Origin: Akkermansiaceae bacterium
Lineage (GTDB): Bacteria > Verrucomicrobiota > Verrucomicrobiia > Verrucomicrobiales > Akkermansiaceae
Direction: 5' to 3'
DNA: 64,000 bases
NCBI GenBank assembly: GCA_905182475.1
Contig: CAJJBR010000034.1
Coordinates: 1 to 64,000 of the forward strand
A model generated the notes under the pieces. The model was not told where the DNA came from. It saw nothing but the letters and a program-made list of their open reading frames with translations, and ran no database searches. The position numbers were made by a program, and so were the translations under genes. Of this stretch, positions 44,359-51,536 are shown in pieces (positions within the stretch are counted from its first letter, which is position 1; each line of letters starts with the position of its first letter).

Positions 44359-45015
44359 CTACCGGCGGGGCTTATTTTTTCTCAAAGGTTCGTGATTTCT
44401 CGAGATCAGGGATGAGATGAAAATCGCGAGGTAGAGGACTCCGCTGAGAGCGGTCAGTATTGTGAAAATTTTCGCAGGCTGGGTGGCGGGGACGATGTCG
44501 CCGTAGCCGAGAGTCGTGAGTGTCACGAAGCTGAAGTAGAGAAGATCGGTTGGGTTGGGTGGCTTGCCGGTGATCTGGTTCAGGAAGGCGTTCGGCTGGA
44601 GGTCGGTGATGGCGATGGAAATTAACAGTGCGAATAGTCCGAGTAGGATGTAGCCGGAGATTCCTGCGAAAATCCGATCCGTTGGGAGCACCCCGTCCTT
44701 GAAGAAGCTGTGTCGGAAAATCTCACGCGCGAGAAAAAAGAAGCCGGCGATGTGGCAACTGAGCTGAATCAACCTCAGCAACAAGTGTTCGGGAAGGAGC
44801 TCCGCTACGATGGCAATTACGGCTAGTAAGAGATAGGTGTGCAGCAAGTGCTTGTTACCTGCCAGAACGCAGGCGCAGATCGCGAAGAAGCCTGGGTAGA
44901 CGAACCCGAGCCAGAAGGTTCCCAGAGTATCCCAGTTGAGGGACGACAGGATTAAGGCTAACTCTGCCGCGAGGAGGATCTTCGCTTTGTTTTCAATCTT
45001 GAGAAATATTCTCAT
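44359..45015 (-). CDS. Potassium channel-like protein (pore loop TLGYGD)
   Basis: LLYFSFVTLTTLGYGDIVPATQPAKIFTILTALSGVLYLAIFIS; several TM segments; overlaps RND gene by 23 bp. Confidence 0.85.
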   Translation of the reverse strand: MRIFLKIENKAKILLAAELALILSSLNWDTLGTFWLGFVYPGFFAICACVLAGNKHLLHTYLLLAVIAIVAELLPEHLLLRLIQLSCHIAGFFFLAREIFRHSFFKDGVLPTDRIFAGISGYILLGLFALLISIAITDLQPNAFLNQITGKPPNPTDLLYFSFVTLTTLGYGDIVPATQPAKIFTILTALSGVLYLAIFISSLISRNHEPLRKNKPRR

Positions 45016-48000
45016 CGGTTATCTCGGGATCTTCATCCTCTGCGGAAGGTTCCTCCGCAAGTGATTTATCGTTTTTGTCGCGGAAGAACAAGCTCATCAA
45101 GGTCGGGCAGAGCACTAGTGTGAGGATGGTGCCAAAACCAAGGCCGAACATCATCGCATTTGCCATTGAGCTCCACATGCCTCCTCCGGAAATAGCTAGA
45201 GGAACGAGTCCTATGATCGTGGTTACCGTGGTCAGGACGATGGGGCGGAGACGTGATAATGCAGCTGCGATGATGGCTTCGTCGACGGATTTGGTTTCGT
45301 CTTTCCACTGCAGGTTGATCTCATCGATCATGAGGATGGCGTTGTTTACGATGATGCCGAGTAGGGCGATCATACCGAGCATGGTCATGAAACCAAAGGA
45401 CGAGCCGGTGACGAGTAGTCCGGGGACAACCCCGACGATCATAGGCGGAATGGTCAAAAGGATGACAAGGAAACGGCGAACGCTGTTGAACTGACTGATC
45501 AGCACGAGGGACAGGAGGCAAAATGCGATGGGCATCGCGGACGCCATGTTCTTCTGCGATTCTGCACTTTCCTCCTTCTCTCCGCCGATTTCCAGATGAT
45601 AACCAGGGAGCATACTTGCGGAGATGGAATCAAGCTTCGGGATCAGGTCCACCAGAGCTTCGCTGGCGAAGCGGCCGGTAACCTGGGCGCCGATGGTCAT
45701 GGTGCGAAGCGTGTTTTCTCGGAGGATGGAACCTGGCTCGATGACGGTGCGAATGTCAGCGATCTGACCGAGTGGAACCGAAACTCCGTCCGCTCCGTAG
45801 ATCGGCATATCTCGGATGCGCTCCGGATGTTTCCGGAAATCTTCATAGCTGCGGACGACGATTGGGATGGTGTCCTCACCCTCGCGATACATGGAGGAAG
45901 TTAAGCCGCTATACTGAGTGGAGAGGGCATCAGCGATGGTGCCGGTGCTGAATCCAAGCCGGCTGGCTTTCACTGCATCGGGAACCACGGCGATCTGTTT
46001 CACCCATACGCCCCAATCGTCCTTGATGTCGTGGAGTCCTGCGACGTCGTTCATCGCGGCCTCAATTTTATCGCGGTTTTCGTAGAGGGTTTCCATGTCA
46101 TCGCCATAGATGCGTATCTGAATTGGCGCGCCGACAGGCGGACCTGACTCCAGGGACTTCGCGGAAAATCGAACTTGTGGGTAGTGCTTGGCTGCGTGTT
46201 CGCTCACGGATTTCTTGATCCGATCGATATCGGTAGGATCACCGGATTTCGTAAGGATATTAAAAAAGGCGTAGTTCGCGTTTGCGGGCTCCGGGGAAAG
46301 GGAGAGATACCAGCGTGGACCGCCGTTACCAATCCACACTGAGATATTGCGAAGCTCATCCCCGTGATTCTTGAGCATCCAAGTTTCCAGTCTCAGTGCG
46401 GCTTTCTCCGTCTCGAGAATATCAGTGCCAAGCGGGAGTTCGAAGTCCGCGATGAACTGCCCGCGTTCGTTTGGCGGGAAGAAGATCGTGGGGATGAGTT
46501 TGAAGCCCATGCCTGCCAGGATTGTCAAAGCGAGAACGATGGCGGGAACCACCAGCTTGGTCTTCAGGCACCAACGCAGAAGCGCCTCGTATGGTGAATA
46601 GAGCTTCTGGAAAAGGCACCCGACGAACGTCTCCTTTTTCAGAGGCTTGAGGAAGTAGTAGCAAAAAATTGGGATGATGGTGATGGAGAGCAGCCACGAA
46701 CAGAGCAGTGTCATCGAGACGACTGCGAAGAGGCTGAAGGTAAATTCGCTCGCGGTTCCGGGTGCCAGGGCGACCGTTGAAAAGGCTGCGATGGTAGTCG
46801 CGCTGGAGGCAAGGAGAGGAATCGTCAGGCTAGCGACCGCCTCGGTGCAGGCAGTGTAGCGGTCATCGCCATTGCTGAGGCGGACGAGGATTTGCTCGCT
46901 GACGACGACGGCATTATCGACCAAGAGCCCCAGAGCGATGATGAGGGCTGCGATAGACATCATTTCCAACTGCACGCCCATCGCAGGCATGAAGGAGAAG
47001 CAGAAAAGGATGGCGGAAGGAACAAGCACGCCGACCACAAGAGAAAGCCGTAAGCCTGCGAAAAGTAGCATCACCAGCACCACGAAAAAGAACGCCTGCC
47101 CGAGATTTACTAGAAAACTACTGATTGACGCGCTGACATATTCTGGCTGGAAGAAGATGCTTTCTACCTCCACGCCTATGGGGAAAGTTTGCACAGTTTT
47201 GACAATCTCCGCGTTGATGAGGTCACCGATATCCGTGACAACACCGCCTTTGACCATGGACACAGCCATGGTGATGACCCGCTCGCCATCGACGTGTGCG
47301 AGGCTGGTATCGGGATCCTTGTAGCCGCGTGTGACGGTAGCGAAGTCCTCTAGCTTCACTGTTGTTTCGCCGTCGATTGTTCCGAAACGCAACGCCTTGA
47401 TCTCATCCAGGCTGCCGAATTCGCCCTTAGTGGTGATCGTGACGCGATCCTTGCTAATAAGGACGTTTCCGCTTGAAGCGATCGTATTCTGTGCGGCGAT
47501 CTGTGCGGATATTCCACTAGGTGTGAAACCGTAGGAGGCGAGCTCGCTACTGGAGAACTCGATGAAAATATTCTCTTCGCGAACGCCGTGAAATTGCACC
47601 CTGGCCACTCCTTCGATGGCTAGCAGATTATCTTCGAGAATCTCACCGTAGTCGAGTAGCTCCTTGTTGGTGTAGCCGTTCCCCACGATCGCATAGATGT
47701 AGGGAAAAATATCAGCGAAATCCTCATCATGGACCGAGGGGGTCTTGGCTCCATCCGGCAGCTTGGTTTTGGTAACCTTGTTGCGCATTCTTTGCCAGAT
47801 GGGCCGTAGATCGTAGTAGTTGTCTTTGAGCTCCACTGACAAAATGGAGAGCCCGTTTTTGGAAGTGGATTTGATCTCTTTGACCTCGGCCATTTGCCTG
47901 AGGCTTTTCTCGAGAGGTTCGGAAACCTCCTGTTCCACTTGGATAGGTGTGCGCCCTGGATAGGAGGTGATAACCTGTGCGTTCCTGATGGTGAATTCCG

Positions 48001-48112
48001 GATATTCCAGGCGGCCGATCGTGAGGAACGTCTGGAAACCAACCAGTAACAGTAGGGTATACAGGATCAGGCTGGTGCGGTTGTTCCGCAGGGTGATCTT
48101 TGCGAGGTTCAT
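44993..48112 (-). CDS. RND-family efflux permease (AcrB-like)
   Basis: VITSYPGRTPIQVEQEVSEPLEKSLRQMAEVKEIKSTS, IIALGLLVDNAVVVSEQILVR, MLGMIALLGIIVNNAILMIDEIN, RLRPIVLTTVTTIIGLVPLAI. Confidence 0.95.
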   Translation of the reverse strand: MNLAKITLRNNRTSLILYTLLLLVGFQTFLTIGRLEYPEFTIRNAQVITSYPGRTPIQVEQEVSEPLEKSLRQMAEVKEIKSTSKNGLSILSVELKDNYYDLRPIWQRMRNKVTKTKLPDGAKTPSVHDEDFADIFPYIYAIVGNGYTNKELLDYGEILEDNLLAIEGVARVQFHGVREENIFIEFSSSELASYGFTPSGISAQIAAQNTIASSGNVLISKDRVTITTKGEFGSLDEIKALRFGTIDGETTVKLEDFATVTRGYKDPDTSLAHVDGERVITMAVSMVKGGVVTDIGDLINAEIVKTVQTFPIGVEVESIFFQPEYVSASISSFLVNLGQAFFFVVLVMLLFAGLRLSLVVGVLVPSAILFCFSFMPAMGVQLEMMSIAALIIALGLLVDNAVVVSEQILVRLSNGDDRYTACTEAVASLTIPLLASSATTIAAFSTVALAPGTASEFTFSLFAVVSMTLLCSWLLSITIIPIFCYYFLKPLKKETFVGCLFQKLYSPYEALLRWCLKTKLVVPAIVLALTILAGMGFKLIPTIFFPPNERGQFIADFELPLGTDILETEKAALRLETWMLKNHGDELRNISVWIGNGGPRWYLSLSPEPANANYAFFNILTKSGDPTDIDRIKKSVSEHAAKHYPQVRFSAKSLESGPPVGAPIQIRIYGDDMETLYENRDKIEAAMNDVAGLHDIKDDWGVWVKQIAVVPDAVKASRLGFSTGTIADALSTQYSGLTSSMYREGEDTIPIVVRSYEDFRKHPERIRDMPIYGADGVSVPLGQIADIRTVIEPGSILRENTLRTMTIGAQVTGRFASEALVDLIPKLDSISASMLPGYHLEIGGEKEESAESQKNMASAMPIAFCLLSLVLISQFNSVRRFLVILLTIPPMIVGVVPGLLVTGSSFGFMTMLGMIALLGIIVNNAILMIDEINLQWKDETKSVDEAIIAAALSRLRPIVLTTVTTIIGLVPLAISGGGMWSSMANAMMFGLGFGTILTLVLCPTLMSLFFRDKNDKSLAEEPSAEDEDPEITDENISQD

Positions 48113-49152
48113 GCGGCTGGGCTTAGAGTGACGACCATTCCTTCGGTGATCAGGTTGACCCCGCGGGTGACGACTTTCTCCCCGGGTTTGAGTCCACTGA
48201 GGATATCGATCTCTCCATTCTCACGGATGTTCCCGATAGTGACGTTGCGCTTGGTTACGGTAGTGATGCTACCTTCCTTCACGATCCAGACATAGTTTTC
48301 CCCGTCCGCCCCGCCGCTTACGGCCGCGGCATCGATACGGATGGTTTCTGCTTCCTTGTCTTGGAATTTTAGCTCTGCCTCGGCGTTCATCCCCCCGAGA
48401 AAGCCTTCGGTCGTTTCTTCTAGTAGGAGGGAAATATCGTAGGTGCCGTTGCTGGTGACCTGTGGGTAGATGCGCTCGACCGTGGCCGAAAGCCCGTCTT
48501 CAGTGAGGCTGTTGACGAAGACTTTTCCTTTCATCCCGAGTTTGACTTTTCCGATGAGGTCTGCAGGAACCCCGACATGGGCTTTCATAGCGCCATTTCC
48601 GCGTATGCTCATGACTTCGGTTCCGGCGGAGACGACGTTCTGCTCGTCCACCTTGACGGATTCGATCACGCCATCGTAGGGCATGAGCAGTGTGCCGTCT
48701 TTGACGCTTTTCCTGGCGACTTCGGCGGATGCCGTAGCGATGCTTTGGGCGGCAATGGCGTTGTCTAGGTCTGCCTTGCTGGCGTTTTCTGTTTCGTAGA
48801 GCTGCTGGATTCTTTTAAGCTCTTCGACTGCCTGGACTTCTCCAGCCTCGGCGCGGCGGAGTTCGGATTCGAGATTCGCAACATCGAGGCGGGCGAGCAT
48901 TTCGCCTTTTACATAGCTACGGCCTTCCTTGGCGATGATCTGTGTGATACGCCCGGAGACTTCGAATCCTAGGCTGGTGGAGTCTGCTGACTTGAGGACT
49001 CCAGTGAAGGTGCGGGTGTCTTGACCGGAGGGTTCTAAGACGGTCTGGACGATGACGGGTCTGACTTTTGCGGCGACGACAGGATCGTCTTTACCGCAGC
49101 CCACCATGACGAATGGAGCGATCAGAATGAGGGTTAGGAAATGGATATTCAT
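48109..49152 (-). CDS. RND efflux periplasmic adaptor (membrane fusion protein), probable lipoprotein
   Basis: Signal with FVMVGC lipobox; SLGFEVSGRITQIIAKEGRSYVKGEMLARLD; PYDGVIESVKVDEQNVVSAGTEVMSI. Confidence 0.9.
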   Translation of the reverse strand: MNIHFLTLILIAPFVMVGCGKDDPVVAAKVRPVIVQTVLEPSGQDTRTFTGVLKSADSTSLGFEVSGRITQIIAKEGRSYVKGEMLARLDVANLESELRRAEAGEVQAVEELKRIQQLYETENASKADLDNAIAAQSIATASAEVARKSVKDGTLLMPYDGVIESVKVDEQNVVSAGTEVMSIRGNGAMKAHVGVPADLIGKVKLGMKGKVFVNSLTEDGLSATVERIYPQVTSNGTYDISLLLEETTEGFLGGMNAEAELKFQDKEAETIRIDAAAVSGGADGENYVWIVKEGSITTVTKRNVTIGNIRENGEIDILSGLKPGEKVVTRGVNLITEGMVVTLSPAA

Positions 49153-51536
49153 TGCTGTTCCTTGGTGATGTGTTCGATGTGGAGTGATCCGGTTTGGAGA
49201 TAGCTGCGCAGCATACGTGTCCAGGCTGCTTTTTCCTCGGGAGTGCTGGAAAATTCAAACCAAGCCATGGAGCGCTGGATCCCGATGGTGTCTGAGAGGA
49301 AGGCGTATTTCGCAGAAGCGGCGCTGCGGCGGCGGTTGATCAGATCGGTCTGCGCATCGAGGAGATCGAGGATGGAGGTGGCTCCGCGAGTGTATTTTTC
49401 CTGGACGGACTCGTAATATTTCTCAGAGGCGTTCTGGGCGTCGCGGGTAAGGCGAACGGCGGGATGACTGGCGGCGGATTGGTAGGCGTTGGTCAGGGCG
49501 CTTTGCTCGATGAGGTAGATGGCGTTGTCGCGCTGGGCTTCGAGTTGGCGAATTACTGCGGCTATTCGTTGCTGCTCAGTTCTGCGGAGGCCACCTTCGC
49601 TGAGCGGTATTCTGAAACCGATACCGACAGTCCATTCGCTCTGTCCATCGTAGTTCTGGGAGGTCTCTGTGATGAAACGATTGAAGCTGGCTGTAAGAGA
49701 TACCTCTGGGTGGAAGTTTCTGCGTCCGCGTTCCTTGAAAAGGATTCCCTGGCTGGCGAGACTCTTGTCGAAGGCGGAAATTTCTGGGGCGCGCCAGAGG
49801 GACATTTCCTTGATGAATCCGATGTATTTTTCGAACATGTCTAAGTTGTTAATGAGAGGACGTAGCTCTTCATCCATGAAGTAGACGTCCTTCTCGCCAA
49901 GCCCGATATCCTTGAGTCTGTAGTTTGTGCCCGCGCGTATACCTAGGGCTACATTGAGGGCGAAACGGGCGTTTTTCCGGGTTGCGTCCCTCTGGATGAG
50001 ATTGGATTTCGCATCGGCGTAGGAAGAGAGCCAGCGGAAAATTTCGGAGGGCTCGGCGGCGCCGATATCCCGGCGTGTCTTGGCTAGGTTGAGATTCTGC
50101 CCAGCGAGAGAGAGGTTTTCCTTTTCAATTTCGTAGAGCGCATCAGCGAGGAGGCAATCGAGGTAGGCGTTGCCCGTTTCTTGCATGCTGTCGAGGTGAA
50201 CGGATTCCAAATCGAAGGTGGAGGCGGCTTCGTCCTGAGCCTTTGCGCGGATCTGGCTGGTGAGCCTGTCGCTGTAAAGAAGCTGAGAGACTTCGGCACC
50301 GATCAGGAGAGAGTCGGTATTAGCCTCCGTTGCGCGGTTAATTCGGTCGGCCACACCGCTTTTCCTAGCGGATCCTGTGATGGAGAGCTGGGGAAAGCGT
50401 TGAGTTTTGAGGTTCTTTGCCTCCCAATATGTCGCGGAGAGGCGTGCTTTTGCGAGACGGATGCTGGCGTTGTTCTCAGCAGACAATTTCATGGCCTGAT
50501 CTATGGATAGGGAGGCATCGAATTGTTGGATGGTTTCTAAATCGATTAGCTCGGCAGAGAGAAGGGTTTCGTAATCGGGAGACCAGCCTATGACTTCCGC
50601 CGTCTTCATGTTGATCCTGAGGGTGTCGTTACTACGGAGGACGACGGGGAGGAGGGTGGTCGAAATGCCAGAGAATATCTGGTGGAGGTTGGTTGCACAG
50701 CGGCGGTGAAGGGCAAGGCTACTATCGGGCGAAAGGCTGGCGAGTGCGCCTGCTTTCACGTCTACTTCGCCAAGCATGGACATGGAGATAACTCCGCGCT
50801 GATTGAGGCCGGAGAGGAGTTTTCCCCGTTCTCCGAGCTTGTAGCCGTTTATGATCGAGATATAAACCGCTTTCGCAGAGGAGGGCAGATTCGCGAGCGC
50901 ACCTGAGGCGGTTGTGGTGGCCGGGATGACTACGATGTCGATTCCAAGTTGTTTCTCCACTGCCGGGATACGCTCGGAGAACTCCTCTGCTAGGCGCTCG
51001 ATAGCGAGACTGTCAATGATGGCATATAGCTTCTTCTTTCCGGAAATGCGGGAGAGCTCGGCAAGATCCGACTGGACGCGCCTTGCTTCGAGGACAAATG
51101 TAAAATTTGGAATCGTTGAAGTGCCGTTTTCAGAAATGGATTCGTTGTTGAGTTTGGAGAACTCGACTGCTCCGGCAACAACGGGTTTCGTGCGGAGGGC
51201 TGCGGGAAGATTCTCTGCAATATAGGATGAAACGACGCCAGCGGTATAGACGACGTCGATCGCGGGATCTTTGATTGCCTGCAGGAGCTTTACGCGAATG
51301 GCATCGCCGTCACCCAGCGCGTTGAAGCGGTCGACGGTTTCGAAACGGTAGCGATCCGAGGCCAGGATTTTGAGTTCTTCTTCGATACCGACGATCAGGG
51401 AATCGAAATGGGCGGAATCAGAATCACGGACGATCGCTATGCGTTTGATTTCCTGGGCGCGTAGGTTTAGGAAACTAAAACAGAGAGCAGCCAATAATAT
51501 CCACGCGATTCGTCTGTCTGGTTTGATAGTGATCAT
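49149..51536 (-). CDS. Fusion: N-terminal ABC substrate-binding-like periplasmic domain plus C-terminal TolC-family outer membrane efflux domain
   Basis: N-term IKRIAIVRDSDSAHFDSLIVGIEEELKIL...VVYTAGVVSSYIAENLPAALRTKPVVAG...KAVYISIINGY; C-term SIDQAMKLSAENNASIRLAKARLSATYWEAKNLKTQRFPQLSITGSA...YTRGATSILDLLDAQTDLINRRRS. Confidence 0.82.
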   Translation of the reverse strand: MITIKPDRRIAWILLAALCFSFLNLRAQEIKRIAIVRDSDSAHFDSLIVGIEEELKILASDRYRFETVDRFNALGDGDAIRVKLLQAIKDPAIDVVYTAGVVSSYIAENLPAALRTKPVVAGAVEFSKLNNESISENGTSTIPNFTFVLEARRVQSDLAELSRISGKKKLYAIIDSLAIERLAEEFSERIPAVEKQLGIDIVVIPATTTASGALANLPSSAKAVYISIINGYKLGERGKLLSGLNQRGVISMSMLGEVDVKAGALASLSPDSSLALHRRCATNLHQIFSGISTTLLPVVLRSNDTLRINMKTAEVIGWSPDYETLLSAELIDLETIQQFDASLSIDQAMKLSAENNASIRLAKARLSATYWEAKNLKTQRFPQLSITGSARKSGVADRINRATEANTDSLLIGAEVSQLLYSDRLTSQIRAKAQDEAASTFDLESVHLDSMQETGNAYLDCLLADALYEIEKENLSLAGQNLNLAKTRRDIGAAEPSEIFRWLSSYADAKSNLIQRDATRKNARFALNVALGIRAGTNYRLKDIGLGEKDVYFMDEELRPLINNLDMFEKYIGFIKEMSLWRAPEISAFDKSLASQGILFKERGRRNFHPEVSLTASFNRFITETSQNYDGQSEWTVGIGFRIPLSEGGLRRTEQQRIAAVIRQLEAQRDNAIYLIEQSALTNAYQSAASHPAVRLTRDAQNASEKYYESVQEKYTRGATSILDLLDAQTDLINRRRSAASAKYAFLSDTIGIQRSMAWFEFSSTPEEKAAWTRMLRSYLQTGSLHIEHITKEQQ

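Follow-up and report, generated by a model that had tools for sequence, protein, structure and literature searches.

Results

The fused gene and its operon

The window, the 64,000-nucleotide stretch of Akkermansiaceae DNA analysed here, contains on its minus strand an RND operon whose first gene encodes an outer-membrane factor (OMF) of 795 aa fused to an additional N-terminal domain. The ORF, at 49149–51536, is a single intact frame extending from ATG to stop, with no internal stops. It is followed on the same strand by genes for a periplasmic adaptor (membrane fusion protein) of 347 aa at 48109–49152 (NCBIfam RND_mfp, 200 bits, above cut-off; Pfam HlyD_3) and an RND permease of 1039 aa at 44993–48112 (Pfam ACR_tran, E=2.7e-164), with 4-bp overlaps between the OMF and adaptor genes and between the adaptor and RND genes. 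OMF, adaptor and RND permease, the gene set that defines tripartite RND efflux, are present in one operon, in line with a preliminary description which placed the fused gene at the head of an RND operon. The fourth operon gene, at 44359–45015 on the minus strand, encodes a 2TM potassium-channel-like protein (Pfam Ion_trans_2, E=7e-16); absent from the preliminary description, this gene, which has a TTLGYGD filter, also takes fourth place in the operons of L005, L019, L020 and L021, the four loci most closely related to that of the window. No ABC importer genes adjoining the fused gene were detected in the Pfam-scanned gene list of the window.

The encoded protein begins with a Sec signal peptide, read from the sequence by eye (residues 1–28, MITIKPDRRIAWILLAALCFSFLNLRAQ; 51453–51536, minus strand), from which a lipobox Cys is absent. 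This is followed by an ABC_sub_bind-like (class I periplasmic-binding) N-domain of ∼310 aa at about residues 29–334 (50535–51452, minus strand), a short linker of ∼10 residues at about 335–345 (50502–50534, minus strand), visible as the gap between the N-domain and OEP profiles, and a TolC-family outer-membrane channel of the fused-OMF clade at residues 346–795 (49152–50501, minus strand). Pfam OEP (PF02321) covers residues 346 onward as two stretches with E=6.1e-40, both repeats being present and the channel complete, in agreement with the earlier assignment of the remainder of the protein to the TolC family. With the N-domain envelope reaching residue 337 and OEP homology beginning at 340–346, the tether is very short. 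An AF2 monomer model of the full protein, for which the input consisted of two sequences only, had a pLDDT of 37.3.

Identity of the N-domain

When considered alone, the window N-domain has no Pfam match at E<=10 and, in single-sequence searches, neither an NCBIfam match nor a credible PDB match, so that its by-eye assignment to an ABC-type substrate-binding fold is not confirmable from the window protein itself. Relatives provided the confirmation. The N-domain of a homologue in Sulfuricurvum matches Pfam ABC_sub_bind (PF04392) with E=1.5e-10, above the curated cut-off, and also NCBIfam TrpX (6e-5), and three other fused N-domains match PF04392 weakly when the domains are scanned separately. 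When the fused N-domains were compared by hhalign with a profile of ten stand-alone ABC_sub_bind proteins, the match extended over ∼320 columns with probabilities of 99.6–99.7%, values which hold without the Sulfuricurvum and Cetobacterium sequences; a rerun with default settings gave 99.0%, and column-shuffled and OEP controls gave 0.0–0.1%. A 12-sequence N-domain profile detected PDB entries 3lkv (E=5.3e-5) and 3lft (E=1.4e-3) over ∼225 residues, these structures being phenylalanine- and tryptophan-binding members of ABC_sub_bind, respectively (PMC6816091). An AF2 model of the N-domain, built from the window protein and one relative, was weak (pLDDT 46.6), and the top Foldseek matches of this model, 3lft, 6hnj and 3lkv (best E=2.4e-3, TM 0.26), are consistent with the assignment but do not constitute proof. 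Neither this model nor that of the full protein was good enough to show a cleft or the placement of the domain.

The profile comparisons assign the N-domain, over its whole length, to ABC_sub_bind (PF04392), a class I family. The profile search of both halves proposed in the preliminary description thus succeeded outright for the OEP half, and for the N-terminal half failed with the window protein alone but succeeded with its relatives. The matches to ABC_sub_bind also dispose of the reservation that the N-terminal ∼330 aa might show no periplasmic-binding fold. The ABC_sub_bind fold is usually found in nutrient-catching proteins. The window domain resembles stand-alone members (TrpX/SP1069, 3lft; VC_1101, 3lkv; CD0873, 6hni/6hnj) in fold family and in its whole-length profile match, but whereas these are periplasmic proteins or lipoproteins serving an ABC importer, that of the window is fused to a channel.

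Distribution of the fusion and its neighbouring pumps

None of the 36 other genomes of the same genus or the 22 of the same order that were sampled contains the N-domain, indicating that its distribution is patchy. It was detected in 12 of 384 genomes in a class sample, and its profile matches 24 of 388 genomes in a phylum sample, the weak matches (E>1e-15) being other proteins. High-scoring matches correspond to open frames of ∼790–890 aa, with one of 620 aa cut by a contig end. Fused loci inspected in the phylum Verrucomicrobiota encode 17 full-length and two contig-truncated proteins, and the same junction is present in one open frame at 19 loci other than the window, several of them in finished, one-contig genomes. 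A relative with 55% identity is present in an independent Verrucomicrobiales MAG (L005). Outside Verrucomicrobiota, the fusion is carried by plasmids of Sulfuricurvum (Campylobacterota) and, with weaker N-domain homology, Cetobacterium (Fusobacteriota); no relatives were found in the viral contigs searched. The covalent joining of a binding fold to a TolC protein in an RND operon, as originally described, is therefore not peculiar to the window: the fusion recurs in homologous operons, at 19 or more Verrucomicrobiota loci and in two plasmid lineages, and the genome survey that had been suggested found it beside pump genes at the inspected loci. In one genome (G176; L029:8147-8933, minus strand), a decayed operon remnant was observed in which the first half of the N-domain runs directly into the terminal part of an RND gene.

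Every related locus examined adjoins an inner-membrane pump, either RND or, in one case, an ABC exporter. The window shares the order OMF-adaptor-RND with L005, L019–L021, L028, L058–L064 and both Cetobacterium loci; L022–L025 and L027 have adaptor-RND-OMF, the adaptor of L022 and L023 being a ∼400-aa ORF assigned by position rather than by score. Neighbours in L026 are arranged divergently. The exception in pump type is Sulfuricurvum kujiense plasmid pSULKU01, on which SULKU_RS13415 has the same two-domain architecture as the window protein over 99% of its length at 23% identity. Unlike the RND operon of the window, that of SULKU_RS13415 is ordered OMF-adaptor-RbbA-type ABC exporter, encoding a HlyD adaptor, the RbbA-type exporter and an ABC permease. 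At this locus (L018:6971-14227) the fused duct is accompanied by no RND gene and the pump family has been switched. The RND setting initially reported thus applies to the window and most loci, but the fusion is not RND-specific. As the gene contexts span RND pumps and an ABC exporter, the domain is tied to the duct and not to one pump type.

The two Cetobacterium somerae proteins (726 and 723 aa, plasmid-encoded) have a channel that falls in the fused branch and an operon order like that of the window. Their N-domains are shorter (∼260 aa), one matching the profile at 6.8e-5 and the other not at all, with an hhalign probability of 22%, so that on sequence their membership in the ABC_sub_bind family is weakly supported. 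SULKU_RS13415 is annotated as an 'ABC transporter substrate binding protein' and the Cetobacterium proteins as 'TolC family protein'. With annotation split between two names in two phyla, surveys of either family miss the architecture.

Evolution of the fused channels

In a maximum likelihood tree of the channel domain, the 20 fused proteins, which represent three phyla, group on one branch apart from 31 unfused TolC-family proteins with support of 100/100, a split with which an earlier channel tree agrees. This topology agrees with the fusion having arisen once, long ago, as judged against an unfused set drawn almost entirely from the window's own class, Klebsiella TolC being the only member from another phylum. 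The window protein is like TolC and OprM (PF02321) in possessing a full OEP with two repeats and in being encoded in one pump operon together with an adaptor and an RND permease, and differs from them in its ∼310-aa N-terminal binding-type domain and in its position on a branch separate from unfused TolCs. Mean pairwise identity is 28% for the N-domain and 31% for the channel, and the pairwise identities of the two domains are correlated (r=0.90), a value reached in none of 2000 Mantel permutations. The N-domain is therefore under as much constraint as the channel and has moved together with it.

Conserved residues of the fused N-domain

A merged alignment of 20 fused N-domains and ten stand-alone ABC_sub_bind members revealed that structural residues P118, V260, G263, G290 and A328 are common to both sets. 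In contrast, the set conserved in stand-alone members (TP, VxxVxDPV, TG, N, TDN and Tyr) is mostly replaced across the 20 fused proteins, in which TP 101–102, DPV 126–128, TG 146–147, N 176, D 230 and the invariant Tyr 273 are not conserved. The fused proteins have a conserved set of their own, D38-G39, E54, D94, G100, N144, D157, G256, R278-R279, A281-L282-N283 and N309, of which R278, N283 and N144 are invariant and D38, G39, G100 and G256 nearly so, and which includes new RDG and RRxALN motifs, the latter in a helix. Several of these fused-specific residues are located in loops that align with the binder motifs of stand-alone members.

In CD0873 and VC_1101 a pocket Tyr shapes the preference for aromatic side chains, a position occupied by Gln in the tryptophan binder (PMC6816091); we infer that this Tyr is equivalent to that at column 273. 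The fused N-domains differ from the aromatic binders in lacking the family's invariant Tyr and in their changed conserved residues. A working aromatic-amino-acid binder was rejected as a candidate on these grounds and, as the residues conserved in stand-alone members mostly differ, the alignment makes binding of the classical aromatic amino acid ligands unlikely. Ligand binding may even have been lost, as most of these residues are not kept. A cleft that functions for another ligand is also possible, since several fused-specific residues lie in the binder-motif loops.

Discussion

The fused duct is a real, old variant of the TolC family, thinly scattered over three phyla, rather than a novel type of system. 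Sequence shows the fusion itself, the family of the added domain, its single-branch ancestry, co-divergence and pump linkage. The trimeric placement considered below is drawn from homology to TolC and OprM, and ligand binding and the gating effect are likewise inferences.

In OMFs, helix H1 lies in the equatorial domain, from which the N-terminus of OprM originates, and no other region is as OMF-specific as the equatorial belt, which is linked with the choice of partner (PMC8277102). The N-terminal end of OprM carries a lipid anchor, and a review of OMFs describes no binding-type domain at this location (PMC8277102). By homology with TolC and OprM, the N-domain would be positioned at the equatorial belt on the outer face of the duct. 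The window protein is the exit duct of a tripartite pump whose adaptor and RND permease are encoded alongside it; in the trimer, three copies of the N-domain would ring this duct on the outside, close to the adaptor and the peptidoglycan. A putative ligand could close the two-lobed domain and thereby make the duct more or less ready for opening or for engaging its adaptor. This location favours a role in sensing, gating or docking and renders feeding of the lumen or of the RND entrance unlikely.

The reading we tentatively prefer is that the N-domain is a periplasmic sensing or gating module, to which we assign a probability of roughly 0.4, with ligand binding and an effect on gating as predicted properties. 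Use of the fold elsewhere in the phylum lends credibility to a sensory role. Tandem ABC_sub_bind proteins of 654–1341 aa with two to four copies of the domain are encoded at L065:5913-10264, L066:7168-9165, L068:5144-10775, L069:1-3978 and L070:3179-8571, one of them in a genome of the window's genus. Neighbouring genes, scanned for L065, L068 and L070, encode a hybrid histidine kinase in the first case, a SpoIIE phosphatase together with a STAS protein in the second and a STAS protein in the third; judged from these genes, the tandem fold probably serves as sensory input in this phylum. The adjacency of these tandems to signalling genes makes sensory use of the fused N-domain credible. That the domain occurs beside an ABC exporter in Sulfuricurvum, and elsewhere beside two RND types, speaks against a ligand specific to one pump. 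A more specific proposal, a ligand-gated exit duct in which the domain detects a metabolite or toxicant in the periplasm and so has direct control over opening or assembly of the channel, is rather unlikely.

Somewhat less probable than a sensing or gating module, yet its closest competitor, is a structural or docking module in which binding has been lost and the domain functions as a rigid spacer or as a surface securing the cognate adaptor, adjacent OMF protomers or peptidoglycan. Replacement of the canonical binding motifs with retention of structural Gly and Pro (P118, G263, G290), the appearance of the invariant RRxALN helix motif and the co-divergence with the channel are all as expected of such a module, as are its location at the belt associated with partner choice and its retention alongside very different inner-membrane pumps. 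However, D38-G39, G100, N144 and G256, situated in the binder-motif loops, resemble a retained cleft, and a complete two-lobed fold would be a costly spacer.

Capture of cargo, in which the domain would bind pump substrate in the periplasm and pass it to the adaptor or RND entrance, raising its local concentration, is improbable. The SBP-family fold and the position of the gene in a pump operon are compatible with such a function, but the tether originates in the outer equatorial region, outside the sealed lumen (PMC8277102) and, by our estimate of the distance, well above the RND porter entrances; moreover, the same domain accompanies an ABC exporter and two kinds of RND pump, whose substrates differ. 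Cargo delivery into the duct, as suggested originally, is for the same reason geometrically awkward, the N-terminal joint lying outside the duct. An assembly chimera or a chance ORF joining two unrelated genes, with which absence from the 36 same-genus genomes and the patchy 12/384 occurrence might agree, is rejected by recurrence of the fusion in a single frame with the same junction across independent loci, finished genomes and an independent MAG, and by the channel tree and N-domain/channel co-divergence.

No description of a fusion between a binding domain and TolC was found in the open-licence full text searched, and the fused-duct architecture appears to be undescribed. The exit ducts of tripartite pumps are usually regarded as passive, with adaptor and pump causing the tube to open. 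A duct with a binding-type domain, maintained in an old conserved lineage, would provide a natural test of whether OMFs sense or select, and, if a ligand-gated duct proved true, tripartite pumps would gain an input from the outer-membrane side.
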